Source: Anaerolineae bacterium (lineage in GTDB: Bacteria > Chloroflexota > Anaerolineae > Aggregatilineales > J027). From it: DNA of 32,352 nucleotides. Positions within the stretch are counted from its first letter, which is position 1, and every line of letters begins with the position of its first letter. Below the pieces are notes generated by a model that did not search any database, was not told where the DNA came from, and was given only the letters and a program-made list of their open reading frames with translations. Where the stretch lies: contig JAJTXY010000042.1 in NCBI GenBank assembly GCA_021463865.1, forward strand, positions 1 through 32,352. The letters are read 5' to 3'. Shown here piece after piece: positions 13,836 to 32,189 of the stretch. The position numbers were made by a program, and so were the translations under genes.

Positions 13836-16800
13836 TCAGTCTACGATGCTGATGTTGTCAATGAACCACCCGTCGTCCACTTGAGCGTCTAACATGGCAT
13901 CCAAACGGAAGCGGATGGTGATATTACTGCCAGCGAAGGAGGTCAGGTCAACGGTACGCTGTGTCCATGCCGGGTTGTCGGTGGCTCGGCGATAGACCTC
14001 TGTCCATGTAAACCCTTCATCCGTCGAGACTTCGATGATGGTGTAGTCAATCAAGTCCAGCGATACACTGTCTTGCCAGATCAGGGCTGGGTTGACCGTA
14101 CCTGCCAAACTCACTTGGCCTTCCAACGTTACGCTGGTGTCGGTCAAATCCTCATAGTCAACTGGCGTACCCCCCGGACGGTTGCTGGGTGGGCTGTCGT
14201 GGAAGACCAAGCTGCCCGTATAGAGACCCAGTTGGAAGAGCGCACTTCCGGTATTTTCATAGTAGTCAACCGTGATGGTGTTCGCCCCTGCCGGGAATGT
14301 ATAGCTAAAACTGTAGAAGGTGGACGGATCAAGGGCTGACCCGCTATTACAGCTTGTCCAATAGGTGGCAGGACTAATCAGTGTTACTGGCCCTGTACCG
14401 TTCTGATTCGTGACTTGGAAAGCGTCGCTTCGATAACCCATGATCTGATACGTCGTCGGATAGTCGAGTTGGATCGTCATCTGGAAGCGTGCCCCCCACG
14501 TGTTGCCATCACCAATGCCAACCCCAGAGGGATAGCTGGTGCCCCAGTTGAAGTCCAAACGATCCGGATAGGTGGTCGTGGTCGTGGCCGTGCCGAGGTT
14601 GGCACTCGCTGAACAGGTACCAGTCACGTTATTGTACCAGCGGGCTAGCCATGGGCCGGGGCCGATTAGCGAACCCGTTGAGAACTGCTGGCGGAAGTTC
14701 ACTTGGACACGTGCCATCCCGGTGTTTTCAACATATTGGATTCGGAGTACGTGATCCCCGGCTGGGAAGGTGCGGGTCACGGTAGTGGTTGAGCCGCCGG
14801 AGCAGCCCCAGTTATTGACAAAGCGGACACCGTTGTCGTACATTCGGATACCGTCATCGGCAAAATAGCTGATGATCAGTGTCGTATCTACCGGGAAATT
14901 CACGGTTCGTGTGAACTCAATGGCGAATAGGTCGGTGGTGGGTGATACATAGGCTGGCCCGGAGTTATTGCTCCAGTCGAACGCGATTTGACCACCCGCA
15001 ACCGGATAGGTGCCGCGATTGGTCGAACCCGATGGCAACGAGTTGACATTCAGATTCGGGAATGAGCAGGTGGCACTGGTTGGGAAACGTTGGATGTAGG
15101 TTGCGTCCCATGTGCCCGGCCCCAAGGCATCGGTGTCATTGCCACTGCCAATGCTGCGCGGTTCCAGCACGGTTCCCCAGTTGTGATCGTACACCCAGTC
15201 ACCGGGAGAGAGAGTTTCCATCGTCTCAAGATAGGGGTCGGCGGTGTATTGGGTTTCGATGCCATTACGATCCACCACTGAGATGTCATCGAGATACCAA
15301 CCATCGTCGGGGGTACTCCCGGCAAGCGCGTCCAAGCGGAAACGGATACGGATGATCTGGTTGATGTAAGGAACCAGATTGACCTGTTGACGTACCCAAC
15401 CCCGATTGGTACTGCTCAAGCGGGTGGTTGGTCCCAATGTTTGGGTAGCTGTCCAGCCAATGGGCTGCCAACCCGTTTGCGGAACCCCTTGATTATTCAC
15501 CCGCATATACTCAACCACTACACGGTCATTGGTAGCCATCTCGTAGTGTTCCCAGTAGTACAGGGTTGGCTCAACAGTGCCAGTAAGATTGATGTTGTAA
15601 CGCAGTTCAATGATGGAGTTGGTGTCCAATGTGTAATTGCCCGCTGGACTTTCGGTAATCGCCGCTACGCCACTGTGATGGTCATTCGTCGAGACGGCCC
15701 AACTGCCACCAACATACCAGTTGTTGAGGTTGCCTTCAAAGTCGTCGGCAAATGGCAGATTGATGGTTAAGTCGGTGCTGGCCTCACGAATGCAGATATC
15801 ATCAAGATACCAGCCGTCACGAACGTCGGCATTGACACGTGCATCCAAACGGAAGCGGAGACGCAGGTCGGTTTGCCCAATCCATGGCGAAAGTTCAATC
15901 ACATCGCGCTGCCAACTGTACATATAATTGAAGTTCGGCGAATAGTGAATGTCCCAGCGCGGCAGAGTGGTTTGTCCATTCGTGAACGACCAAAGATTCG
16001 TGTTCGTCCAGTTCGCGCCGCCGTCAGTCGAGACCTCGACATGAATCGCATCACCCACGCCGATTTCCCAGCGGTGCCAGAATTCCAAGACGGGACGGAC
16101 GACGGTTGGGAAGCCGCTCGGTGGTGGATTACTGAGGTCAATGTTGGGGATCAATTCAAGCGTGCTATCGCTGTTTGGCGCGTAATTGCCAGCAGGGCTG
16201 TCAGTCCATGACTGAGTACCAGCATGAGCGGTATTGTTGGTGACGCCCCAATTGCCGCCTGCGATCCAGTTACCGCCACCGGCTTCAACATTATCGCACC
16301 AATTTGGACGGATGCTTCCGCTGGGCCGATTGCGGATTTGGAAGTCATCTACGTACCAGCCATCCGCTTCCGCACTGTTGTTACTTTGAATCCGGAACCG
16401 TAAGTAGATACGGCTGCGGCGTGCGGCATCATTCACCACATCGGCGGGAATGGGCACGACGATTTGACTGTAGGCCATTTGCGTCTGATTTTGCGCTAGA
16501 TAGGTTGCCGTTCCATTCGGCGTAATCATGCGCCAAGTGGTGCGGTCATGCGAGATTTCTAGATAGATCGCATCCCCAGAGGCAAGATCGTAGCTGTGCC
16601 AGAAAGCGAACTGTGGTTCGTCCAGTACAGCCGTGCTGAGATCAATGCGCCCATCCAATTCCAAAATATTGTTATTGCTGGAGGCATAAGGTCCTGCTTC
16701 GCTGTCGGTCCAGCCAGTGGGAGAGCTGTGGGGATTTTCAGAGGATAGTGTCCAGCCACCGCGATTCACCCAGTTGAGATCATTATCCATCGCATCCGAG

Positions 16801-18248
16801 AAACCAAGCGTGTAGACAGTTTCAATCCGGTTGTCTACTGTGATGTCATCCAAATACCAGCCATCCGCATTGGTGGCCGAAGAATCGGTAATCAGGATAA
16901 ACCGGATTTCAATATACTGACCTCGGAAGTCTTGGGTTGCCCCCAGATCGTCCGTAAAGTTCGCAAGGTCAAAACTTTGACGATTATACGTTGGGGAAGC
17001 CGTTGGGCCAGTGTGTACAGTACGATCATACCAGCGGCCTAGATTGGCGCTGCCGGCCACGCTGACAACCGCACGGTCATATTGGCCGAGGTCGAAAGCA
17101 TCCGAGAATTCCAAGAAGGGATTGTTGATACCCTGTAGTGTCAGGTTGATACGACCACGATAGCGCAAAATACAGTTTTGACCACTGGTATAGGTGGTGT
17201 TGATGGGCGGGCTGTCATGCCAAGCGGTGGGTGGTGAGTTGGGCAGCCAAGTGACCAACGACCAGTTGCAGTCAGCCGTATTGCCCGATTGCCCGGATTT
17301 AAACAAGCTAACTTCGAGCATCGCGCCGCTGCCTGTATCGCGGTGTTGAATCACAATTGGCACCGCACGGGTAGAAGGATTAGTCCAGTTGACCTCGACA
17401 TAGTTCGTACCTGTTGGGCTGTAGTTCCAGTCTTGGCTGTTAACCAGTTGGGTGCTTCCGTCCACAAAAATACGTACCCCGTCGTCACGGCGATAGCGGA
17501 AGGTATAGGCCCCTTGGGCAAGCATGACGGAGTTTGAAAACCGCGAGCAGAAGTCGGTACTGACACCAGCCGCAGGTGAACTACCAGTTGTAGTCCAATA
17601 GGCATGGGTTGCACGCGGGAATTGAATAAGTTGTTCCTGCGTGGTGGTGGTTGGGGGGGTTGAATAGCTACCATCCGTCGCGCTGAAAATATTCCCATTG
17701 TTACAGGTAGACAAATTCCACCATTGGGCATTCCACGGCGCTAGATTTGGATCGGTGAAGACATCGGCGAAGTCGGTTTGCCAGTTGTTAGGATCAGTTG
17801 CTGTATCCTTCCATGGGGCATCCCGATCTTGATCCTGCGGTGTGCTGGTTGGTCCGGCGGTTGCTCCGCTCGGTTCTGGTGTAAAAGTATAGGTCGCAGT
17901 CGCATTTGGAGCGCTGGTGGGTGGCAAACCCGGATTATTCTGCGGGGCGGGGGTGTTGGTGATGAGATCAACATCAGCCGGTGTGTAGGAGGCCACCGCA
18001 GTGACCAAGTTCCAAAATTCATTTGCTTCCAATGGGTCTTGCGGAGTTGTAGTTTGACCCAACAGATCATAAACCGTTCGGCTAAACACGTTGCCAATCG
18101 CTGGCCCGGTGATGGTTAGAATGGCGATAAGGCCAATAAAGGCCAACGCCAAAATCATCACGTATTCAAGCAACGCCTGACCACGTAGTTTACCCCCACG
18201 TTTGGATGTGGGTGTTTTTTTGACCTGTTTGGCTTGATGATCGGACAT
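13836..18248 (-). CDS. Giant surface protein: Flp-pilin-like N-terminus, PA14 and MAM-like repeats
   Basis: This 1470-residue protein starts at ATG 18248 with AGGAGAGGA upstream. Residues 1-23 are basic and end in Gly23, followed by QALLEYVMILALAFIGLIA. Glu at +5 and Tyr at +6 after that glycine match the class III (Flp/Tad) prepilin cleavage site. After the helix comes a Thr/Pro-rich stalk (about 90-150). A PA14-like domain follows (about 155-315, 'YTFRYRRDDGVRIFVDG'), then MAM-like/jelly-roll domains ending in DGWYLDDI-type motifs near residues 461, 628, 810 and 980. Two more PA14-like domains (about 1005-1340) precede a last MAM-like domain ending 'DDGWFIDNISIVD' at the C-terminus. PA14 and MAM folds usually bind carbohydrate or protein, so an adhesin is likely. 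It is monocistronic with its own terminator; no tad genes are nearby. Confidence 0.85.
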   Translation of the reverse strand: MSDHQAKQVKKTPTSKRGGKLRGQALLEYVMILALAFIGLIAILTITGPAIGNVFSRTVYDLLGQTTTPQDPLEANEFWNLVTAVASYTPADVDLITNTPAPQNNPGLPPTSAPNATATYTFTPEPSGATAGPTSTPQDQDRDAPWKDTATDPNNWQTDFADVFTDPNLAPWNAQWWNLSTCNNGNIFSATDGSYSTPPTTTTQEQLIQFPRATHAYWTTTGSSPAAGVSTDFCSRFSNSVMLAQGAYTFRYRRDDGVRIFVDGSTQLVNSQDWNYSPTGTNYVEVNWTNPSTRAVPIVIQHRDTGSGAMLEVSLFKSGQSGNTADCNWSLVTWLPNSPPTAWHDSPPINTTYTSGQNCILRYRGRINLTLQGINNPFLEFSDAFDLGQYDRAVVSVAGSANLGRWYDRTVHTGPTASPTYNRQSFDLANFTDDLGATQDFRGQYIEIRFILITDSSATNADGWYLDDITVDNRIETVYTLGFSDAMDNDLNWVNRGGWTLSSENPHSSPTGWTDSEAGPYASSNNNILELDGRIDLSTAVLDEPQFAFWHSYDLASGDAIYLEISHDRTTWRMITPNGTATYLAQNQTQMAYSQIVVPIPADVVNDAARRSRIYLRFRIQSNNSAEADGWYVDDFQIRNRPSGSIRPNWCDNVEAGGGNWIAGGNWGVTNNTAHAGTQSWTDSPAGNYAPNSDSTLELIPNIDLSNPPPSGFPTVVRPVLEFWHRWEIGVGDAIHVEVSTDGGANWTNTNLWSFTNGQTTLPRWDIHYSPNFNYMYSWQRDVIELSPWIGQTDLRLRFRLDARVNADVRDGWYLDDICIREASTDLTINLPFADDFEGNLNNWYVGGSWAVSTNDHHSGVAAITESPAGNYTLDTNSIIELRYNINLTGTVEPTLYYWEHYEMATNDRVVVEYMRVNNQGVPQTGWQPIGWTATQTLGPTTRLSSTNRGWVRQQVNLVPYINQIIRIRFRLDALAGSTPDDGWYLDDISVVDRNGIETQYTADPYLETMETLSPGDWVYDHNWGTVLEPRSIGSGNDTDALGPGTWDATYIQRFPTSATCSFPNLNVNSLPSGSTNRGTYPVAGGQIAFDWSNNSGPAYVSPTTDLFAIEFTRTVNFPVDTTLIISYFADDGIRMYDNGVRFVNNWGCSGGSTTTVTRTFPAGDHVLRIQYVENTGMARVQVNFRQQFSTGSLIGPGPWLARWYNNVTGTCSASANLGTATTTTTYPDRLDFNWGTSYPSGVGIGDGNTWGARFQMTIQLDYPTTYQIMGYRSDAFQVTNQNGTGPVTLISPATYWTSCNSGSALDPSTFYSFSYTFPAGANTITVDYYENTGSALFQLGLYTGSLVFHDSPPSNRPGGTPVDYEDLTDTSVTLEGQVSLAGTVNPALIWQDSVSLDLIDYTIIEVSTDEGFTWTEVYRRATDNPAWTQRTVDLTSFAGSNITIRFRLDAMLDAQVDDGWFIDNISIVD

Positions 18249-21878: not shown

Positions 21879-22238
21879 ATGGAACTAAATCAATGGGCCT
21901 TTGTCGGAGCATTCCTTTCAATTGCATGGCTGCTCCCGCTTGCGCCAATCATTATGAACTACTTCATCGCACCCAAACGCGCCAACCGCATCAAGAACGA
22001 TGTGTATGAGTGCGGGATCGAGACGGTAGGCGACACATGGGGACAGATCAAAGTGCAATATTATTTGTACGCGATTATTTTCCTTGTGTTTGACGTGGAA
22101 ATGATTTTCTTGTTTCCATGGGCAGTGGCCTACGCCAAATTAGACTTTTTCTCGTATATGGCCGGGGCCATTTTTATCCTGCTATTGGTCGAAGGTCTAG
22201 CCTATGCGTGGAAAAAGGGCGCGTTGGAGTGGTCATAG
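21879..22238 (+). CDS. nuoA: NADH-quinone oxidoreductase subunit A
   Basis: This 119-residue protein starts at ATG 21879 with GGAGAA upstream. There are three membrane helices. The loop NDVYECGIETVGDTWGQIKV carries the conserved Y-E-C-G motif near the quinone cavity, and FDVEMIFLFPWAVAYAK is the family signature of helix 2. NuoA is a membrane subunit of respiratory complex I that sits beside NuoH at the junction with the peripheral arm. It leads the operon, but the usual next genes nuoB, C and D are missing, and nuoH follows after 72 nt. Confidence 0.95.
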   Translation: MELNQWAFVGAFLSIAWLLPLAPIIMNYFIAPKRANRIKNDVYECGIETVGDTWGQIKVQYYLYAIIFLVFDVEMIFLFPWAVAYAKLDFFSYMAGAIFILLLVEGLAYAWKKGALEWS

Positions 22239-22261
22239 AGGTACAGGAAATACTCACCCAA

Positions 22262-22280
22262 ATCGGCTGCACAGGCCGAT
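22262..22280 (+). other. Small hairpin between nuoA and nuoH
   Basis: ATCGGC (22262-22267) and GCCGAT (22275-22280) form a 6-bp stem with a 7-nt loop, followed by ATTTTG. It could tune the relative level of nuoA and the downstream genes. It is too weak to call a terminator. Confidence 0.3.
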
Positions 22281-22310
22281 ATTTTGTGTGTAGATCGGGA
22301 GTAACGAACT

Positions 22311-23540
22311 ATGTATTATGTGAGTGAGCTTTTAAAAGACGCTGGCCTGAGCGACGGCCTAGCCAATACGCTGGGGATTTATATCAGCGTGATTTTGCTG
22401 GCGACGGTGTTCTTGCTGCTGCCCATTTTCACTATCTGGGTTGAACGTAAAGTGGCGGCCCGTTTCCAAAACCGCGTGGGGCCAAACCGCGTGGGGCCGT
22501 TTGGCTTGCTGCAATCCATCCCTGACGTAGTGAAATTGCTAGGCAAAGAATTGATTTTCCCCCGCAATGTTGATCGTATCCCCTATATGGTGTCTCCTGT
22601 CTTGATGGTCATGTCGGTGGTCATGACGGTGGCCGTTGCGCCGCTTGGCCCCAATATCATCGGGACCGACCTTTCCATCGGGGCGCTTTATTTTATCGCC
22701 ATTAGCTCCCTTGCGACGATCGGCGTGGTTATGGCGGGTTGGGGCAGCAACAACAAATATGCACTGTTGGGGGCTTTCCGCACAGTCGCTCAATTGATTA
22801 GTTATGAAATCCCACTGGTCTTCACCCTGCTTGTTCCGGTCATGCTGGCTGGCACGATGAGTATGCAAAAGATCGTGGATTTTCAGGGCGACAATTATTG
22901 GGTGTTTTTCTATGCCCCGGCTGCATTTATCATCTTCGTCTTGAGCAATCTCGGTGAAGTAGGCCGTTCACCCTTCGACCTGATTGAAGCGGAATCGGAA
23001 TTGGTCGCTGGGTTCATGATTGAATACAGCGGTATGGCCTTTGCGATGTTCTATCTGGCTGAATTCCTGCACGCTTTCTTGATCGGTGTGTTTGCCGCAA
23101 CCCTGTTTATGGGCGGCTGGCAAGGCCCGTTTGTCCAAGATGTACCCGCGCTAGGCATTCTCTATCTGACGGCGAAGGCGTTTTTCATCTACTTCTTGAC
23201 GATGTGGGTTCGCTTGACCCTGCCGCGCTTCCGTATTGACCAGATGATGGCGTTCAACTGGAAATTCCTTGTACCCGTGTCCATCGCCCACCTCCTGATT
23301 ACAGGTTTCTTGTGGAAAGTGCTGCCAGAGCCGAATGTGACAGGCAATGTATTTGAGCGTCTGTTTAATGGAGAAGCACTGCTGCGTATGGGGGTGATGT
23401 TCGGGATTAGCGCCCTCCTATTGGTCTATTCACTGCGGATGCTGCGGAATGCGATTTTGCGGGTGCGGGAAGAAACCACCGCCAAATTACGTGAGGCCTA
23501 TCCAACGGCCCATCCGACTACCGCCCCCGCCGGGGATTAA
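22311..23540 (+). CDS. nuoH: NADH-quinone oxidoreductase subunit H
   Basis: This 409-residue protein starts at ATG 22311 with GGGAG upstream. It is the membrane subunit that forms the quinone-binding chamber. The signatures are WVERKVAARFQNRVGPNRVG, PFDLIEAESELVAGF with its conserved acidic residues, and EYSGMAFAMFYLAEF, followed by LRFRIDQMM-type sequence (LPRFRIDQMMAFNWK). It is longer than the roughly 325 residues of the E. coli protein. The additions are an internal stretch before the last helix (NVTGNVFERLFNGEALL) and a charged tail after it. nuoI, which usually follows nuoH, is absent. Confidence 0.96.
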   Translation: MYYVSELLKDAGLSDGLANTLGIYISVILLATVFLLLPIFTIWVERKVAARFQNRVGPNRVGPFGLLQSIPDVVKLLGKELIFPRNVDRIPYMVSPVLMVMSVVMTVAVAPLGPNIIGTDLSIGALYFIAISSLATIGVVMAGWGSNNKYALLGAFRTVAQLISYEIPLVFTLLVPVMLAGTMSMQKIVDFQGDNYWVFFYAPAAFIIFVLSNLGEVGRSPFDLIEAESELVAGFMIEYSGMAFAMFYLAEFLHAFLIGVFAATLFMGGWQGPFVQDVPALGILYLTAKAFFIYFLTMWVRLTLPRFRIDQMMAFNWKFLVPVSIAHLLITGFLWKVLPEPNVTGNVFERLFNGEALLRMGVMFGISALLLVYSLRMLRNAILRVREETTAKLREAYPTAHPTTAPAGD

Positions 23541-23571
23541 TTTTTTGTGACTTGTTGAGAGGATTTTGCAC

Positions 23572-24165
23572 ATGGAAATTACATGGCAAACAATAGCCTT
23601 TGCTGCTTTCGCGGTGATGACACTCGGCGGCGGGTTGATGGTGGTCATCAGCCGTAATCTGTGGCACTCCGCACTGTTTCTGATGTTGAGTTTTTTTGGG
23701 ACATCCGGCTTGTTTGTATTGCTGGTTGCGCCCTTCCTCGCTGCGGTACAGGTGTTGGTTTACATCGGCGCGATTGCCATTTTGGTCTTGTTCGCTATCA
23801 TGTTGACCCGCCGGATGATGGGTTTGGAAGAAACCCAAAATACCCAGTGGCCTGCTGCGGCTGCGGTAGCGGTGATTTTGTTTATCATACTGGTGATTAC
23901 CGTATCGCCGTTGGTAGATGAAAAAGCCGTAACGGACATCTTTGGCGACAAGGTGGCAAACTTCAACGCTAATCTGCCCGTTGACCCGGATGCTAAAGAC
24001 AGTGGTGTCGTCGCCAACCAAGACCTGAACATCGTAACAGTCGAGGCGATTGGCGAGGCCCTTGTAACCCGCGACGGGTTTGTGCTGCCATTTGAATTGG
24101 CCTCTATTTTGCTGACAGCGGCGCTCATCGGGGCGATTGTGGTTGCCCGCGAAGACGAAGCCTGA
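23572..24165 (+). CDS. nuoJ: NADH-quinone oxidoreductase subunit J
   Basis: This 197-residue protein starts at ATG 23572, nine bases after GAGAGG; an in-frame TTG six bases earlier is less likely. It has five membrane helices. LAAVQVLVYIGAIAILVLFAIMLT is the helix 3 signature, whose pi-bulge takes part in coupling. The extra-membrane loop between helices 4 and 5 (DEKAVTDIFGDKVANF...NIVTVEAIGEAL) ends in TRDGFVLPFELASILLTAALIGAI, the usual ending. NuoJ is an integral subunit of the complex I membrane arm. Confidence 0.95.
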   Translation: MEITWQTIAFAAFAVMTLGGGLMVVISRNLWHSALFLMLSFFGTSGLFVLLVAPFLAAVQVLVYIGAIAILVLFAIMLTRRMMGLEETQNTQWPAAAAVAVILFIILVITVSPLVDEKAVTDIFGDKVANFNANLPVDPDAKDSGVVANQDLNIVTVEAIGEALVTRDGFVLPFELASILLTAALIGAIVVAREDEA

Positions 24166-24187
24166 TTTTTTTCGAGGAGCAGAAATT

Positions 24188-24496
24188 ATGGTTCCGTTGT
24201 GGTTCTATCTGGTGGTATCGGCGGCGCTGTTTGCGATTGGCGCGTATGGCGCACTGGCACGGCGTAACGCGATTGCCATTGTGATGTCGGTTGAGTTGAT
24301 GCTGAACGCGGCCAATATCAATCTGGTAGCTTTTTGGCGCTATCTCAATCCCTTTGAAATTAATGGGCAAATCTTCGCGGCGTTCGTGTTTATCGTCGCC
24401 GCCGCAGAAGCCGCCGTCGGTCTGGCACTGATTATCGCAATCTACCGCAGCCGCCAGACGGTCATTGTTGAAGACGTTAACATGCTGAAGTGGTAG
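24188..24496 (+). CDS. nuoK: NADH-quinone oxidoreductase subunit K
   Basis: This 102-residue protein is the usual length for NuoK. ATG 24188 has GAGGAG upstream; longer starts would overlap nuoJ. There are three membrane helices. The two membrane-buried glutamates of the proton pathway are present, in SVELMLNAANINLV and AAAEAAVGLAL. NuoK lies between NuoJ and the antiporter-like subunits. Confidence 0.96.
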   Translation: MVPLWFYLVVSAALFAIGAYGALARRNAIAIVMSVELMLNAANINLVAFWRYLNPFEINGQIFAAFVFIVAAAEAAVGLALIIAIYRSRQTVIVEDVNMLKW

Positions 24497-24549: not shown

Positions 24550-27027
24550 ATGGATGTAAATTGGCTAGACGCAAATTATCTGCCGTGGCTCATCCCGGTG
24601 CCGCCGCTAATTAGCTTTATGCTGATTATTTTGTTTACCGGGCGCAATAAAGTTCTAAGTCACTCCATTGGGGTAGGTTCGGTGGTGTTGTCTTTCTTGA
24701 TGGCCTTTGGCGTTTTTCTAAAAGCCACTGGCACAGATGATTTTGGCCCCAACGCCTATGGGGATAGCATCAAATGGATGGATGTTGGCCTCAGTGAGTT
24801 CAGGATGGGTGTGTTGGTTGACCCCCTGACCGCTGTGATGCTGTTCATGGTGCCGATTGCGATTTTGATGATTTTTGTCTACAGCGTCGGCTATATGGGC
24901 GCGTACCCGGATGATGACCCACACAAAATTCGTTATTCCCGCTTCTTTGCCTATCTGAGCCTGTTCGCGGGTGGGATGTTGACGCTGGTGGTGGCGGATA
25001 ACTTGCTGCTGATGTTTATGGGCTGGGAAATCATGGGGCTTTGCTCCTATCTGCTCATCGGCTTCCTCTTTGAGAAGAAGAGCGCCCAACAAGCAGCCGT
25101 GAAAGCCTTTATGACCACCCGCGTCGCCGACGTGCTGATGCTGGTCGGAATTGGTTATTTGTATGCCGAAGCCGGCACACTCAGTTTCCGCGACATCCTC
25201 TACAATGCTGAAGTTTTGGAGCGATTGGGTAACTCTGATTTGACTGGGTATCTTGGTCTAAGCGCCGCCTCGATTATTGGCCTGCTGCTGGTCATCGGTA
25301 CAATCGGTAAATCCGCCCAATTCCCGCTGCACGCATGGCTGCCCGACGCGATGGAAGGCCCGACCCCTGTTTCTGCTATGATTCATGCGGCAGCAATGGT
25401 GTCGGCTGGTGTGTACGCCGTGATTCGCATGTTCCCCCTCTTAGAAGCAGGTGGCAATCCCCATCACGCCGAATACACCGCCCCACTCATTTTAATGGGG
25501 GTGATTGGTTCTATCACAGCCCTCGGCGCGGCGATTTTGGGTGTCGGTCAAAATGACATCAAGCGCGTGCTGGCCTATTCGACAATTTCACAGCTTGGGT
25601 TTATGGTGGCGGCGCTCGGCATTGGTGCTTACGTCGCGGCGGCCTTCCACCTAATTACCCACGCATTTTTTAAGGCCCTTTTGTTCATGAGTTCCGGTGC
25701 GGTTATTCACGCGATGGAGCATGGCGAACACGCCGCCGAACATGGACATGACGAGCATCACGCCCATCATGACGAACATGCCCACGACGCACACGCGCAT
25801 GGACACAGCAGCTATACATGGGCTGACCTGAACGCGAAGATTGAACACGGCATCGAAGCGGGCCATTTGCAACCCGGCGAACGTACCCCCTATGGCGCGG
25901 ATTATGTTGGGCCAAATGGTGAACTACCGGATGATGCCGAATGGAAAACCAGTATTCCACAGGGTTTAAAACCCGATTTTGTGGCGAAACCCAATAACAT
26001 TGCCCTGATGGGCGGCCTGATTAACAAGATTCCCGTGACCGCCTATGCGATGTTGGCAGGGTCAGCCAGTCTGGTAGGTTTTCCGTTGATTACAGCGGGG
26101 TTCTGGTCAAAAGACGAGATCATTGCTGATGCGATGACCTTTATCACCAACAGTGGACAATTTGAAGGTCATTCGCCTTGGTTGCATATGCTAGTGTTCT
26201 TCTCTTTGGTTATTGCGGCGACCTTTACCGCCTTCTACACCACCCGCATGTGGTTATTGACCTTCTGGGGTAAGCCACGCAGCGCAATGGCGGAACACGC
26301 GACGCTAATGAACCACGTAGATGAAGAGGAACTCGCCCAAGCACAAACCCCGCTCAAGAGATTTTGGTTGCAATATAGCAACAGCGCCTTGATGCAAGGG
26401 CCGCTGGTGGTTTTGGCCTTCTTTGCGATTTTTGCGGGTTTTGTCGGAATTCATGGCGATTTCCCGGTGTTGGAATGGTTTACAGGTAGCCATAATTTCT
26501 TCCATGAATTTGTTGGTCCATCCCTGCTGCATGAGCCAGCGACAATCCCCTTCAAGATATGGCCTGTGCTCGTGTCGGTCTTAGCTTTCAGCATCGGGGC
26601 GGGCTTTGCGTATCTCGTATATGGTGTACCACGCGACAGCTACGAAAAAGACCCCGTGCAAAACATGGTCGGCGATCCAGTTTGGCAAGCGCTCAAGGAT
26701 CGTTTCGGCTTCGATACGCTCTATCTGGCGACCTTCTATCGCGGCTTTGAATGGTTCGGGCGTGTATTCTCCTATCGCAAAGTGGATAAAGAAACGATTG
26801 ACGGCATTCTTGAAACCGTCGCGGTGGTCTTTAACAACATCGGCGAGGCCATTAAACGCTTCAACCATGTGATTATTGACGGTGTGGGTGATGGTATCCC
26901 ACAACTCATCGGACTGAGCGGACGCTGGTTCCGCAATCTACAAAGCGGGCGTGTCCAGCAATATCTGCTCTTCACGGCAGTCATGCTGCTCGCAATCGGT
27001 CTGTTTTTCGTATTGCGGGTACTCTAA
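24550..27027 (+). CDS. nuoL: NADH-quinone oxidoreductase subunit L, enlarged
   Basis: This 825-residue protein starts at ATG 24550 with GGAGAA upstream; typical NuoL is about 610-660 residues. It is an antiporter-like proton-pumping subunit at the far end of the membrane arm. Key residues are kept: Glu160 (GWEIMGLCSY), Lys254 (GKSAQFPLHAWLPDA) and Lys521 (FWSKDEI). Two additions explain the length. The first is a His-rich segment at about 388-484 between VIHAM and ALMGGL, with 13 His in residues 391-419. The second is an extension of the C-terminal lateral helix, where an IDG motif occurs twice (750-752 and 776-778) between FDTLY (721-725) and SGRVQQY (799-805). The second addition fits a complex I with an extra antiporter-like subunit. 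Confidence 0.95.
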   Translation: MDVNWLDANYLPWLIPVPPLISFMLIILFTGRNKVLSHSIGVGSVVLSFLMAFGVFLKATGTDDFGPNAYGDSIKWMDVGLSEFRMGVLVDPLTAVMLFMVPIAILMIFVYSVGYMGAYPDDDPHKIRYSRFFAYLSLFAGGMLTLVVADNLLLMFMGWEIMGLCSYLLIGFLFEKKSAQQAAVKAFMTTRVADVLMLVGIGYLYAEAGTLSFRDILYNAEVLERLGNSDLTGYLGLSAASIIGLLLVIGTIGKSAQFPLHAWLPDAMEGPTPVSAMIHAAAMVSAGVYAVIRMFPLLEAGGNPHHAEYTAPLILMGVIGSITALGAAILGVGQNDIKRVLAYSTISQLGFMVAALGIGAYVAAAFHLITHAFFKALLFMSSGAVIHAMEHGEHAAEHGHDEHHAHHDEHAHDAHAHGHSSYTWADLNAKIEHGIEAGHLQPGERTPYGADYVGPNGELPDDAEWKTSIPQGLKPDFVAKPNNIALMGGLINKIPVTAYAMLAGSASLVGFPLITAGFWSKDEIIADAMTFITNSGQFEGHSPWLHMLVFFSLVIAATFTAFYTTRMWLLTFWGKPRSAMAEHATLMNHVDEEELAQAQTPLKRFWLQYSNSALMQGPLVVLAFFAIFAGFVGIHGDFPVLEWFTGSHNFFHEFVGPSLLHEPATIPFKIWPVLVSVLAFSIGAGFAYLVYGVPRDSYEKDPVQNMVGDPVWQALKDRFGFDTLYLATFYRGFEWFGRVFSYRKVDKETIDGILETVAVVFNNIGEAIKRFNHVIIDGVGDGIPQLIGLSGRWFRNLQSGRVQQYLLFTAVMLLAIGLFFVLRVL

Positions 27028-27046: not shown

Positions 27047-28888
27047 ATGGGAAGTTTCATCTCAAATGTTCTTAATTTCTTGATTCTATGGCCTGCAATT
27101 GGCGCGATTGTGGTGGCCCTGCTGCCCAGCAATCAGCCCAATTTAGCACGCTGGGTCGCGCTGGGGATGAGTATTCCGTCGCTGATTATCTCCATCGGGC
27201 TGTTTTATGCGGTCATGAATGGCGATCCAACGGCGAGTGGTTATCATCTTGAATATGTCAGCGAATGGTTCCCGGAAATCGGCGCGAACTGGCATGTGGG
27301 GGTAGACGGCATCTCAGTCACGATGGTGCTGCTGACCGCCCTACTCACCCCGATTGCCCTGTTGATTGCGTTTGAACACACTGAGAATACAAAAGTGATT
27401 CTCGCGTTGATCCTGTTCCTACAAATGGGCTTGGTCGGCGTATTTGTGGCGCTCGATATGGTGCTGTTCTTCCTGTTTTGGGAAATCGGCCTCGTCCCGA
27501 TGTACTTCATTATCAACCAATGGGGTGGCGCGAATCGCAAGTACGCCTCGATGAAGTTCTTCATCTATACGATGGCCGGGTCGCTCGGTTTGCTGTTAGC
27601 CATCCAATTGATCGGCTTCACCGTCGGTGATGTCAAAGGCTTGAACGGCCCGACCTTTGATATCCAAACATGGCACGAAGTCTGGCCTCAGATTGGCCGT
27701 GAAACAAATTTGCCGGGCGAAAATCCGGGCGAGATTCTAGGCGTTAGTTATACCGCCGTTAAATATTATGCCTTCCTCGGCTTCTTTATTGCCTTTGCGA
27801 TCAAGATTCCGGTTTGGCCCTTCCATACATGGTTGCCCGATGCTCACACCGAAGCACCTACTGCGGGTTCGATGCTGCTGGCGGGTGTCTTGCTGAAATT
27901 AGGGGCGTATGGGTTTATCCGATTGGTGATCCCCCTATTCCCCGAAGAACTTGCCAGCCCACGCACTTTATTGAGTGTCTCAGACTTAAATTTCACCTTT
28001 GCCCAAGTAATGGCAGGGTTGGGAATGTTGGGGATTGTCATGGGGGCGTTCTCGGCATGGGCACAGGACGACCTCAAGAAATTGGTCGCCTATTCCTCTG
28101 TTAATCACATGGGTTTTGTGGTGATGGGTATTGCGGTGATGGGTGTTTGGTACAGTGTCATGTGGGCGCAATCCCCCGATGTCAATGACCCCGTGCTGGC
28201 GCTCCAAATGGCGGGTCAGGGATTAGAGGATGAGGACATCGCCAAGTATCGAGACCAAACCCAACTCCAAGCGGCGACTATTGACGAGCTTACCAGTGAT
28301 GACCAAAAGGCATTGGCCCAAGTCAAATTGGACGCTGAACTCGACATGGATGAGAACATGCAAAGTGCCAATGTCGCCCTCAACGGCGCGGTGCTGCAAA
28401 TGTTTAATCATGGTCTGAGCGCGGCAGCCATGTTCTTGTTGGTCGGGGCGCTCTATCACAAAGCCCATACCCGTGACCTGCGGCGCTTCGGCGGCCTGTG
28501 GCACATTGTCCCGGTGTTTGGCGGCTTGTTCGTCTTCACCAGCATGGCGAGTCTCGGTCTGCCCGGTCTCAATGGGTTTACCAGCGAGTGGATGATTGTT
28601 TCCGGCGCATTCCCATACTTTGAGGTGATGGTACTGATTAGCACGATTGGTTTGCTGCTGACGGGTGCGTATATCCTCAAAGGGATTCAGAAGGTGCTGC
28701 AAGGCCCACCGAACCCGGACTGGATTGAATATCACGAACATCACCACAGCTTGGAAATCTCGTACCGTGAAACGATTGCCATTGCACCATTGGTCGCGTT
28801 GATGTTGATTACAGGACTGTATCCTAACTGGATTTTGCCTGTCATTAACGAGCGCGTCTATCATATCTTTTCGGCATTTATTCGGTAA
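27047..28888 (+). CDS. nuoM: NADH-quinone oxidoreductase subunit M, copy 1
   Basis: This 613-residue protein starts at ATG 27047, with AGGAG about 12 nt upstream. All pumping residues are present: Glu146 (FWEIGLVPMYF), Lys253 (FAIKIPVWPFHTWLPDAH), Lys284 (LLKLGAYGFIR) and Glu514 (GFTSEWMI). A charged, mostly acidic insert of about 70 residues lies at about 374-445 between VNHMGFVVMGI and GAVLQMFNHGL, where NuoM normally has only a few residues. It contains Gln/Asp/Glu-rich helices (QGLEDEDIAKYRDQTQ). The reading frame stays intact through the insert and on into good NuoM sequence, so it is not a frameshift. Confidence 0.95.
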   Translation: MGSFISNVLNFLILWPAIGAIVVALLPSNQPNLARWVALGMSIPSLIISIGLFYAVMNGDPTASGYHLEYVSEWFPEIGANWHVGVDGISVTMVLLTALLTPIALLIAFEHTENTKVILALILFLQMGLVGVFVALDMVLFFLFWEIGLVPMYFIINQWGGANRKYASMKFFIYTMAGSLGLLLAIQLIGFTVGDVKGLNGPTFDIQTWHEVWPQIGRETNLPGENPGEILGVSYTAVKYYAFLGFFIAFAIKIPVWPFHTWLPDAHTEAPTAGSMLLAGVLLKLGAYGFIRLVIPLFPEELASPRTLLSVSDLNFTFAQVMAGLGMLGIVMGAFSAWAQDDLKKLVAYSSVNHMGFVVMGIAVMGVWYSVMWAQSPDVNDPVLALQMAGQGLEDEDIAKYRDQTQLQAATIDELTSDDQKALAQVKLDAELDMDENMQSANVALNGAVLQMFNHGLSAAAMFLLVGALYHKAHTRDLRRFGGLWHIVPVFGGLFVFTSMASLGLPGLNGFTSEWMIVSGAFPYFEVMVLISTIGLLLTGAYILKGIQKVLQGPPNPDWIEYHEHHHSLEISYRETIAIAPLVALMLITGLYPNWILPVINERVYHIFSAFIR

Positions 28889-28921: not shown

Positions 28922-30601
28922 ATGGAAACTCAGTTCAGCGGCATTCTTACAGGCATTTTGGCCTTTCCCTTTGTCGCCGCGATCATCATTCTGTTTATTG
29001 ATAAAGAACAGAAAGAAGTGATTCGCACCATCGCGGCCTTCGCTACCGGAGCAAGTTTGATTCTGGCGGCGCTGGTCTTTTTCACCTATGACACCGAGGC
29101 GGCCCGAACTGCGAATGCTGGTCTCATTGACAGCGGTAGTGGACTGCTGACCTTCCAATTTGTGGATAAGGTGACATGGATTAAGGAACTCGGCGTCAGT
29201 TATCAACTTGGTGTAGATGGTTTGGCGGCCCCGATGGTGCTGCTGACGGGTCTCGCCAGTTTTGCCGGGGTGATGATTTCATGGGGCATCGAAGATCGGG
29301 TACGCGAATTTATGGCGTTTTTCCTGCTCTTGGTTGCCGGGGTATACGGTGTATTTATCTCCACCGACCTCTTTCTGCTGTTGTTCTTCTATGAACTCGC
29401 CATCTTCCCGATGTACTTCCTGATTGCAGGCTGGGGCTGGGTCGAACTGCGCGAATACGCCTCCATGAAACTGACCCTGTACATCTTGATCGGGTCGGTG
29501 ATTGCATTGGTCGGCATTTTGGTGCTGTATTTTGAGGCCGGGGCATTCTTCACCGAACATCCCGAACTCCAACCTGCCACCTCTGAGACTGCCTACAGCT
29601 TCGATTTCAACCATATCCAGTATGCGGCTCAACAGGGTGCATTTAATGAGGCCAATTATCTCGGCTTGGGTGACGGGGTGACGATTGCCCGCTTCTGGTT
29701 CCCCTTCATTTTCTTGGGGTTCGCGGTGCTGGCTGGTATCTTCCCTTTCCACAACTGGTCACCCGATGGTCACGTCGCCGCGCCAACCGCTGTTTCGATG
29801 ATTCACGCGGGGGTGTTGATGAAATTAGGGGCTTTGACCGCCATCCGTTTGGGCGTTCAATTGCTGCCAGATGGGGCGCGTGTCCATCTCCCTTGGATAG
29901 TCTTCCTTGCGCTGGTCAATGTGGTGTATGGCGCGTTTATCGCCTTCCGCCAGCGTGACTTCAAATACGTTATCGGGTTTAGCTCGGTGTCGCACATGGG
30001 GTTGGTTAGCTTGGGTGTGGCGACGATGAACACGACGGGTATGACGGGTGCGGGCCTGCAAATGTTCTCACACGGTGTCATGACGGCTCTCTTCTTCTCC
30101 TGCGTCGGCATGGTTTATGACCGAGCGCATACCCGCGATATTCCCAGTTTGGGCGGGTTTATCAAGAAAATGCCGCTGGTCGCAATCGCCTTCATTATCG
30201 GCGGTTTGGTCAGCATGGGTATGCCGGGCCTGAGCGGGTTTGTCGCCGAATTCCCGATCTTTATTGGGGTCTGGCGCGGGATTCCGCAGGCAATTATTGA
30301 TGCGTCCCCAACTGGATTGACCAAAGGCGGTGCGAACTACTATGGCTTCATCGCTATTGCCGCTGCACTGGGTATTATTCTAACAGCCGCCTATGTGCTG
30401 CGTGTTGTGGGGCAGGTTTTCTTTGGCGAGTTCGACGAAGAAAAATTCCCCGACATCCCCCCCATTCGAATTCAGGATCGCGTAGCAATTTATATGCTAA
30501 CGGCGTGGCTGATTGTTTTGGGCGTATATCCGAAGCTCATGTCGGATATGATCGAAAGCGCCGTCCAGCCGGTAGTCGGGTTACTGACCGGCAGCAAGTA
30601 A
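28922..30601 (+). CDS. NADH-quinone oxidoreductase subunit M, copy 2, lacking the TM7 lysine
   Basis: This 559-residue protein starts at ATG 28922 with AGGAG upstream; a TTG three bases earlier is in frame but less likely. It is a NuoM-type antiporter-like subunit: FYELAIFPMYFLIAG (Glu158), PFHNWSPDGHVAAPTAVS, LMKLGAL (Lys301), FSSVSHMGLVSLGV and GMPGLSGFVAEF (Glu443). The segment FAVLAGIFPFH (267-277) aligns with FAIKIPVWPFH of copy 1, so Leu270 takes the place of the central TM7 lysine. It lacks the acidic insert of copy 1 but has a longer loop before that helix (about residues 203-255). The cytoplasmic tail is acidic (FGEFDEEKFPDIPP). It is placed between nuoM and nuoN. Confidence 0.93.
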   Translation: METQFSGILTGILAFPFVAAIIILFIDKEQKEVIRTIAAFATGASLILAALVFFTYDTEAARTANAGLIDSGSGLLTFQFVDKVTWIKELGVSYQLGVDGLAAPMVLLTGLASFAGVMISWGIEDRVREFMAFFLLLVAGVYGVFISTDLFLLLFFYELAIFPMYFLIAGWGWVELREYASMKLTLYILIGSVIALVGILVLYFEAGAFFTEHPELQPATSETAYSFDFNHIQYAAQQGAFNEANYLGLGDGVTIARFWFPFIFLGFAVLAGIFPFHNWSPDGHVAAPTAVSMIHAGVLMKLGALTAIRLGVQLLPDGARVHLPWIVFLALVNVVYGAFIAFRQRDFKYVIGFSSVSHMGLVSLGVATMNTTGMTGAGLQMFSHGVMTALFFSCVGMVYDRAHTRDIPSLGGFIKKMPLVAIAFIIGGLVSMGMPGLSGFVAEFPIFIGVWRGIPQAIIDASPTGLTKGGANYYGFIAIAAALGIILTAAYVLRVVGQVFFGEFDEEKFPDIPPIRIQDRVAIYMLTAWLIVLGVYPKLMSDMIESAVQPVVGLLTGSK

Positions 30602-30617: not shown

Positions 30618-32189
30618 GTGCCTGAATTGATGCAGTTTAATACTGACGATACACGTGGTTTTCTGGCGATTTTGCCGGAAATCTTGATGACCATCTTGGT
30701 ACTGATTGTCATCTATATGGACTTGTTTTTGCCGCCCAGCCGCCGCAAGAGTGTTGGCTATATGGCGGGGGTCGGGATGCTGGTCATTGGAGGTCTGGCT
30801 TGGCTGCTTGTGCCCGCCGATGGTCTAAAAGTTTCCGAACAACTCGTGTTGGGTGGGATGGTTCGCAGCGACGACCTTGCCAGAATCTTTAAGGTGATGG
30901 TGGCGTTGGTCGGTGGTCTAACCTGCCTGATGGGGATGGGCGACATCCGCCTGCGCTATAAAGGCGAGTTCTACGCCTTGATTATCATCGCCACGATGGG
31001 AGCCAGCCTGTTGAGCAGTGCCGCCGATTTGGTGATGGTGTTCATCTCGCTTGAAACCCTCTCGATTAGCCTGTATGTGCTGTCGGGTTTTGTACGCCGT
31101 CCCGAAACCCCCGATCCGACCCAAGAGGCCTTTGCCAGCCGTAGCGCCGAAAGTGGGATGAAATATTTCTTGTTTGGTGCGTTCACTTCGGCCTTCTTGC
31201 TCTATGGCCTCAGCCTGCTTTATGGCTTTTCCGGTGGTCACACCAATATTTACCGAATTGGACAAGCGTTAGCCGTTGGTGAACAAGATACGGCTCCGAT
31301 TATTTTGGCGCTCATGATGGTCGTTGTCGGTTTCGGTTTTAAGATTAGCGCCGTGCCGTTTCATTTCTGGACACCCGATGTGTACGAAGGTTCACCCACC
31401 CCGGTGACTTCTTTCATCTCGGTGGTTTCCAAAGCGGCTAGTTTTGCGGTCTTGACCCGTTTCCTGTTGGCGGTTTTCCCACCAGAACAGTTGATTAGTG
31501 TCCCACTGGATCAGTATAAAGAATTCAGCGAAATCTGGGTGCAGTTGTTCTCGATTCTCGCCGTCATCACCATGACACTTGGCAACATTGTCGCCCTAAG
31601 CCAGCGTAATATCAAACGCCTGATTGCCTATAGCTCGATTGCCCAAGCGGGATATACCTTAATGGGTGTCGCGGCGATTGCCACCACCAAATCCGGTGAC
31701 GGCGCGGCGGCGGTGGCGTACTATATGTTCATGTACGTTTTCACCAATACACTGTTCTTCGCCTGCCTCATCCTGTTTACCAATGCCACTGGCTCAGAAA
31801 CCATTGCCGATATGGCAGGTCTCAGCCGTCGCAATCCTTGGTTGGCGATGGGTATCACAATCGCTCTGCTCTCATTAGCAGGGATTCCCCCCACAGCGGG
31901 ATTCGTTGGCAAGTTCTTGCTGTTCCGCGCCGCTGTGGATTCTGGCCTGACATGGCTGGCGGTGTTTGGTGTGTTAAACGCAATCATCGGCCTCTACTAC
32001 TATCTGGTAGTCATCAAAGTGATCTATGTTGACCGCAGTCCCGATGATGAGAAGCCGATTGATCTGCCCGCCCCCTATGGATTTGTGATGGCCGCCAGCG
32101 CTGTCGCAGTCGTCTTGCTCGGCACGTTCCTGATTGGCCCGATTGTCAACTGGGCATCCGAAGCCGGACTCGACTTGTTCCGTCTGTAA
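30618..32189 (+). CDS. nuoN: NADH-quinone oxidoreductase subunit N
   Basis: This 523-residue protein starts at GTG 30618, eight bases after TAGGAGAG. The next in-frame ATG (30630) has a poorer distance to that site. It is the third canonical antiporter-like subunit. Conserved residues: Glu146 (SLETLSISLYVL), Lys242 (FGFKISAVPFHFWTPDVYEG), Lys272 (VVSKAASFAVL) and Lys432 (FVGKFLLF). The signature YSSIAQAGYTLMGV and the GIPPTAGF turn are present. It is the last gene of the operon and is followed by a strong terminator. Confidence 0.96.
   Translation: MPELMQFNTDDTRGFLAILPEILMTILVLIVIYMDLFLPPSRRKSVGYMAGVGMLVIGGLAWLLVPADGLKVSEQLVLGGMVRSDDLARIFKVMVALVGGLTCLMGMGDIRLRYKGEFYALIIIATMGASLLSSAADLVMVFISLETLSISLYVLSGFVRRPETPDPTQEAFASRSAESGMKYFLFGAFTSAFLLYGLSLLYGFSGGHTNIYRIGQALAVGEQDTAPIILALMMVVVGFGFKISAVPFHFWTPDVYEGSPTPVTSFISVVSKAASFAVLTRFLLAVFPPEQLISVPLDQYKEFSEIWVQLFSILAVITMTLGNIVALSQRNIKRLIAYSSIAQAGYTLMGVAAIATTKSGDGAAAVAYYMFMYVFTNTLFFACLILFTNATGSETIADMAGLSRRNPWLAMGITIALLSLAGIPPTAGFVGKFLLFRAAVDSGLTWLAVFGVLNAIIGLYYYLVVIKVIYVDRSPDDEKPIDLPAPYGFVMAASAVAVVLLGTFLIGPIVNWASEAGLDLFRL

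Follow-up and report, generated by a model that had tools for sequence, protein, structure and literature searches.

Models of complex I assign to a TM5-Glu/TM7-Lys pair in each antiporter subunit the role of a switch relaying the signal along the arm, and mutation of the TM7 lysine of NuoM stops the enzyme. The form designated 2M complex I was reportedly named by Chadwick et al. in 2018 (ISME J) and carries two NuoM genes between nuoL and nuoN, in the order L-M1-M2-N. Published work already covers the 2M complexes with their gene order and longer NuoL (PMC7117926, PMC9040806, PMC6606698, and PMC8004040), and the available parts of these four papers hold no statement that M2 is of the type serving elsewhere as the sole NuoM. 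No statement that M2 or any other NuoM lacks the TM7 lysine was found in the literature searched, a scope that leaves the founding 2M paper outside, and an earlier notice is possible.

The window analyzed here is a 32,352-nucleotide stretch, contig 37 of a 4.9 Mb genome whose closest named relatives are Chloroflexi/Anaerolineae MAGs, e.g., CFX10 and CFX5. It contains a plus-strand cluster read as nuoA-H-J-K-L-M1-M2-N, in which H, L, N, and both Ms were assigned by Pfam or NCBIfam (nuoH by Pfam) and A, J, and K by eye. The nuoA, nuoH, nuoJ, and nuoK genes occupy 21879..24496 and are followed by nuoL (24550..27027), which encodes a long lateral helix (stretch 26710-26946) together with the TM7 lysine and TM8 histidine. 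Next are nuoM1 (27047..28888), a canonical Lys-type NuoM with its TM7 Lys253 at 27803-27805, nuoM2 (28922..30601), and nuoN (30618..32189), which has its TM7 lysine (31341-31343). The gene order, the longer NuoL lateral helix, the lack of nuoF near the cluster, and the placement of nuoBCDI on another contig with nuoCD fused all match the 2M complexes. A family search of contig 37 yielded no NuoF family gene.

The nuoB and fused nuoCD genes were located on contig 59, away from the window cluster, beside a 532-aa 4Fe-4S gene that is taken as nuoI. The stretch L221 3103-8387, next to nuoB and nuoCD, holds both this 532-aa protein, which exceeds in length the 164-aa NuoI-like frame found on contig 1, and a 1165-aa frame for which neither Pfam nor NCBIfam gave a match. 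Another complex I is encoded on contig 1 of the same genome; it includes members of the NuoD and NuoF families, and its NuoM carries the TM7 lysine. A third complex-I-like set lies on contig 32 (L207), where frames resembling NuoL, NuoN, and NuoH occur with a member of the 49-kDa family.

The nuoM2 gene, the second of the two NuoM genes, is an open reading frame on the + strand that encodes 559 aa and ends in a stop codon, with AGGAG before its ATG. Its product scores 441.4 bits against TIGR01972 (NDH_I_M), above the curated cut-off of 263.8; the NuoM of Prevotella P0002 scores 404.4 bits. NDH_I_M, not TIGR01974 (NuoL), is the best family for the nuoM2 product, which lacks a C-terminal lateral helix. 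With canonical NuoM/Nqo13/ND4 of E. coli and P. denitrificans, M2 shares the family, the fold, the TM5 and TM12 glutamates, the TM8 lysine, and the histidine of the wire. It differs from them at TM7, where copy 2 reads FAVLAGIFPFHNWSPDGH and copy 1 (27047-28888) reads FAIKIPVWPFHTWLPDAH.

Leu270 (29729..29731, CTG, + strand) takes the place of the ion-pair lysine. In alignments free of gaps around this site it matches E. coli Lys234 and its P. denitrificans counterpart, Lys232, in agreement with the sequence-only reading, which had placed it at E. coli Lys234 and had also listed Glu158, Lys301, and Glu443 as kept. That reading had left open whether the leucine is conserved within its clade. 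Among 137 copy-2 rows, position 270 is Leu in 131, Thr in 6, and Lys in none, the Thr rows all belonging to one genus (f18, g51). In the alignment of 131 copy-1 rows, all 116 that cover the TM7 site have lysine and the other 15 are fragments or gapped there; an apparent loss of lysine in some M1 copies was an artefact of dropped insertions relative to the query. A larger alignment of 358 NuoM rows comprises 176 Leu, 6 Thr, and 156 Lys rows, 18 without the site, and 2 frame-shifted fragments. Some organisms are present twice, once per collection. Reduced to distinct core sequences, the counts are 146 for Leu, 5 for Thr, and 131 for Lys, with 18 lacking the site and 1 fragment. The 80 named loci had been picked by six peptide patterns, and the TM7 stretch lies outside all six.

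Of 400 Chloroflexota genomes, 99 contain the exact DNA pattern of the Leu-type motif, a lower bound because the pattern misses Thr and Tyr variants, and none contains the identical pattern with a Lys codon at 270. No lysine stands at the TM7 position and the close relatives lack it too. A sequencing error or single-strain change as the origin of Leu270 is already refuted by these row and genome counts and merits practically no credence.

The leucine belongs to a set of linked substitutions. Gly272 (29735..29737, +) replaces proline at the +2 position, with Gly in 136 and Ser in 1 of 137 M2 rows and Pro in 116/116 covering M1 rows. In the alignments, Ser280 in TM7b (29759..29761, +) replaces the channel leucine (E. 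coli Leu244, Paracoccus Leu242), and His295 in TM8 (29804..29806, +) is gained where canonical NuoM has Leu. Arg/Lys349 of canonical NuoM is Tyr in M2. Read together, positions 270/280/295 are K/L/L in 154/156 Lys rows, L/S/H in 171/176 Leu rows (with L/S/A in 3 and L/A/L in 2), and T/V/L in 6/6 Thr rows. Position 270 is thus never Lys, and position 280 never Leu, in the 182 Leu/Thr rows; His295 is missing in 11 of them (6 T/V/L, 3 L/S/A, 2 L/A/L). The co-occurrence of this triad does not amount to independent covariation, because the rows share one ancestry.

His295 lies 16 residues after a conserved Trp, the same spacing as the TM8 histidine of the window NuoL (E. coli His254, the NuoL/MrpA switch histidine), and M2 and this NuoL have MIHA in common. 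NuoL has the TM7 lysine and no TM8 lysine, whereas M2 is the reverse, and the likeness is one of position, not of membership. The residue at the position of NuoL Ser150, the partner of His254 near the ion pair, reads Met164 in M2.

Residues of the proton path are largely retained. At Glu158, the TM5 ion-pair glutamate (29393..29395, +; E. coli Glu144), 179 of the 182 Leu/Thr rows have Glu and the other 3 have Asp, and at His284, the uptake-channel histidine (29771..29773, +; Paracoccus His246 by column), 174 have His and 8 have Tyr. The histidine of the lateral wire, His358 (29993..29995, +), and the terminal glutamate of TM12, Glu443 (30248..30250, +; E. coli Glu407), are kept in 182/182 rows each. 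The central TM8 lysine, Lys301 (29822..29824, +; E. coli Lys265), is kept in 174, with Asn in 4 and Ala in 4. The view of the sequence-only reading that one module is shut off from the usual relay of protons is not supported by the rows. His284, Lys301, His358, and Glu443, matched by column to the residues credited in the literature with conduction from N-side to P-side, persist in most of them, and the loss concerns the Lys partner of the ion-pair switch.

Counted as distinct sequences, losses of Lys301 amount to 8/131 outside the list of loci with a single M, 0/13 on that list, and 0/3 from Bacteroidales. The 167 loci outside the list include nine that end before any M1 (L022, L047, L064, L065, L077, L092, L093, L110, L203) and four in which a Lys-type M1 is labeled M2 (L169, L174, L176, L177). 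The confinement of the loss to this group is suggestive and leans toward a module that carries protons, the numbers being too few for a real difference. Leu-type M2 proteins with Ala or Asn in place of the TM8 lysine (L166, L167, L172, L205, L068, L171, L203, and L204) keep the TM5 and TM12 glutamates and possibly mark a further step of decay into a spacer.

Purifying selection acts on M2 as it does on M1, with dN/dS values of 0.057-0.125 for M2 and 0.013-0.094 for M1 over eight comparisons each; three of the eight involve one organism encountered twice, and a ninth, saturated pair was excluded.

To place the two types, sampling was extended to class relatives (150 genomes) and the phylum (301 genomes), and 40 further stretches were parsed, two of them from the window's own genome. 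In an unrooted tree of 58 rows with the signature columns removed, the Lys and Leu/Thr types split once with 100/100 support, Bacteroidales grouping with the Leu type and M1 with the Lys type. Judged from this tree and the alignments, the Leu/Thr-type NuoM is one old clade and not a strain quirk. Lysine is probably the older state because NuoL and NuoN have the TM7 lysine, and the change from Lys to Leu would have occurred once. Since the Leu type stands beside a Lys-type NuoM in 2M loci, the two Ms represent different old lineages and not a recent duplication.

The sequence-only reading had set the missing lysine in the frame of a four-antiporter complex, and the distribution of the clade does not support a peculiarity confined to a spare fourth module. 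A Leu-type protein is the sole NuoM between nuoL and nuoN in 13 Chloroflexota genomes (G317, G338, G364, G414, G417, G422, G432, G439, G446, G456, G462, G468, and G475). A second L-M-N region was read in 12 of these 13 (not G432) and has a Lys-type NuoM in 12/12. Outside the phylum, the three best matches in a plasmid collection are Prevotella nigrescens, Bacteroides finegoldii, and Phocaeicola massiliensis records, labeled plasmids there, whose NuoM reads GFGVLGALFPFHTWSPDGH and is the only NuoM beside L and N; the adjoining NuoL and NuoN keep the TM7 lysine. Among the plasmid matches listed (30 of 385; 60 of 387 records), the Leu type occurs in these three Bacteroidales only, and the other two plasmid NuoM proteins read, from Rubrobacter and Shinella, have the TM7 lysine. 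A scan of viral contigs with the Prevotella NuoM as query gave no match.

These records connect the clade to the headless 11-subunit complex I of Bacteroides/Prevotella (PMC7002350 and PMC6560451, both available in part). The comparison uses the three records above, not the B. fragilis or P. bryantii sequences of those papers, and in it all three Bacteroidales NuoM proteins are Leu-type with the same triad. The Bacteroidales complex differs from that of the window in having one M, a short NuoL brace, and Ala instead of Gly at the +2 position. The P. bryantii Nuo subunits named as detected in the available part of PMC6560451 exclude NuoM. According to the available part of PMC7002350, deletion of nuo in B. 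fragilis gave no activity or colonization defect and the operon is poorly expressed; pumping by a Leu-type complex is therefore unproven.

Lack of nuoEFG was considered as a cause of the Leu type and rejected. In 13/13 one-M genomes the surrounding 10 kb of the Leu-type nuoM are free of NuoF family genes, although two of them, G456 and G446, have one on the same contig at about 14 and 19 kb, and none lies within 20 kb on the same contig in 17/17 genomes with a two-M Leu-type nuoM. The absence of NuoF does not separate the types, because 9/10 genomes selected for a Lys-type one-M cluster also have no NuoF near that cluster (in G310 it is 7 kb off); distances were compared by eye and some contigs are short.

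Placement of copy 2 in a longer arm is supported by the NuoL brace. The lateral-helix span is 78-82 residues in 82/83 two-M rows and 52-54 residues in 23/27 rows without a second M, a brace about 27 residues longer in 2M loci. The window NuoL, at 80 residues, has the insertion of ~26-28 residues that characterizes 2M complexes, and the two Bacteroidales NuoL proteins measured have a brace of 53 residues. The 83rd two-M row, L138, has a span of 90 and a frame-broken M1. Single-M exceptions are the window genome's own contig-1 complex (L206 15831-18242), with one NuoM beside NuoL and a span of 82, and a Rubrobacter marinus plasmid (L219 2130-3953), with one NuoM and a span of 77; L200 (17) and L207 (25, a different complex-I-like set) are not comparable. 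The available part of PMC9040806 likewise describes NuoL insertions in further complexes of its organisms. Incorporation of both Ms in one complex is predicted from the gene order and the length of the brace. The 2M cluster of Chloroflexus aggregans is transcribed, as stated in the accessible portion of PMC8004040. In two loci (L138 5114-6653 and L036 2-1469) M1 extends over three overlapping frames with M2 intact, reflecting frameshifts or sequencing errors.

The model of M2 has the fold of a plain NuoM (3rko_C, Z 45.9, rmsd 2.1, 495 aligned). Its pLDDT falls to 57 at residues 271-280 and 49 at 281-290, the M1 model has 58-66 round TM7b, and the TM7 helices end two residues before the site in both (268 in M2, 251 in M1). 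No distance supports a Glu158-His295 contact, because the model is weak at residues 271-290.

The nuoM2 product is best explained as a proton module with a rebuilt gate that pairs Glu158 with the TM8 His295, an evenly balanced prediction drawn from sequence. The Leu-type subunit would still carry protons along His284-Lys301-His358-Glu443, with Glu158 released from the hold of the lysine. Because the gained His295, at the position of the mobile NuoL His254, would take over switching together with Ser280, the module would open and close by a water-mediated Glu/His contact in place of the Glu-Lys salt bridge. Three studies, each available in part, bear on this mechanism. In Nqo13, the ion pair lies ~14 Å from the main Lys-His-Glu proton path and tunes that path by its field (PMC11496545), and in NuoL, the TM8 residue His254 moves back and forth from the release side to the Lys-Glu pair (PMC13358369). 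In the purified Paracoccus enzyme, K232Q and L242A, at the positions that are 270 and 280 in M2, each abolish NADH:quinone activity, and impaired variants are still coupled (PMC9802314). A working Leu/Ser type would therefore need compensation. In 2M lineages that also lack Lys301 the module would probably be a non-pumping link, and a spacer is the better guess there.

The main rival is a structural spacer or charge relay, in which the Leu-type NuoM passes a conformational or electrostatic signal and moves no proton; a 2M complex would therefore pump no more than a normal one, and a one-M Leu-type complex one proton fewer. It would account for the missing Lys-Glu switch in the whole Leu/Thr clade, for the replacement of the channel leucine at 280 in 182/182 rows, where Ala abolishes Paracoccus catalysis, and for the loss of Lys301 in eight distinct sequences, none on the one-M list (L203 ends before a possible M1). 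The spacer is nevertheless rather unlikely, given the full retention of His358 and Glu443, the near-complete retention of Lys301 (174/182), the purifying selection on M2, and the preservation of the Leu type as the only M beside L and N. In the published work available in part, moreover, blocking mutations in canonical NuoM stop the whole enzyme, not one module.

Use of another ion, with a module lacking the ion-pair lysine carrying Na+ or K+ or exchanging it for H+, is improbable. The accessible text of PMC6560451 suggests a Na+/H+ role for the headless Prevotella complex, and M2 has polar residues, Ser280 and Thr185, at two positions that are nonpolar in M1. Against this, M2 retains the residues of the proton wire, and the acidic residues gained relative to M1 at the comparison thresholds (129, 178, 400, 503, and 545) fall in loops or helix ends in the model. 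There is similarly little to commend the idea that an ordinary Glu-base pair is re-formed by a lysine or another base reaching into the pocket from a different site of the subunit or from an adjacent one (NuoN, M1, or NuoL). Position 257 of M2 is commonly Arg or Lys (119/137 rows), but this residue sits near the start of TM7, 13 residues before 270, and the other bases gained within M2 relative to M1 (128, 343, 345, and 520) are modeled in loops or helix ends.

More broadly, it is tentatively proposed, with doubt somewhat outweighing confidence, that in an old complex I lineage including at least some Bacteroidales a Glu-His switch with a NuoL-type TM8 histidine replaces the Glu-Lys switch of NuoM. 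If so, at least two solutions would exist, of which the "essential" ion pair is one, and the 2M complexes of Chloroflexota would be hybrid arms in which the two kinds of switch, one each, work in series. A natural clade without the TM7 lysine, changed also at a second fatal position, offers a ready test of whether the pair itself, or some switch there, is needed, and suggests that part of a textbook proton switch may have been rebuilt in nature. The Leu-type NuoM is relevant as well to the additional proton that 2M complexes are assumed to pump per cycle, for which a lower H+/e- ratio due to the lost lysine is possible and not implied, and to the headless complex I of gut bacteria, itself poorly understood.

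Three further features of the window were observed. About 78 residues of M1 (28139-28372), between the conserved MGVWYS and VALNGAVLQMF, are absent from M2. A His-rich loop of NuoL (25708-25809; HAMEHGEHAAEHGHDEHHAHHDEHAHDAHAHGHS) is a possible metal-binding stretch. On the minus strand, 13836-18248 holds a 1470-aa frame with a pilin-like N-terminal segment and, by eye, apparent repeated units.
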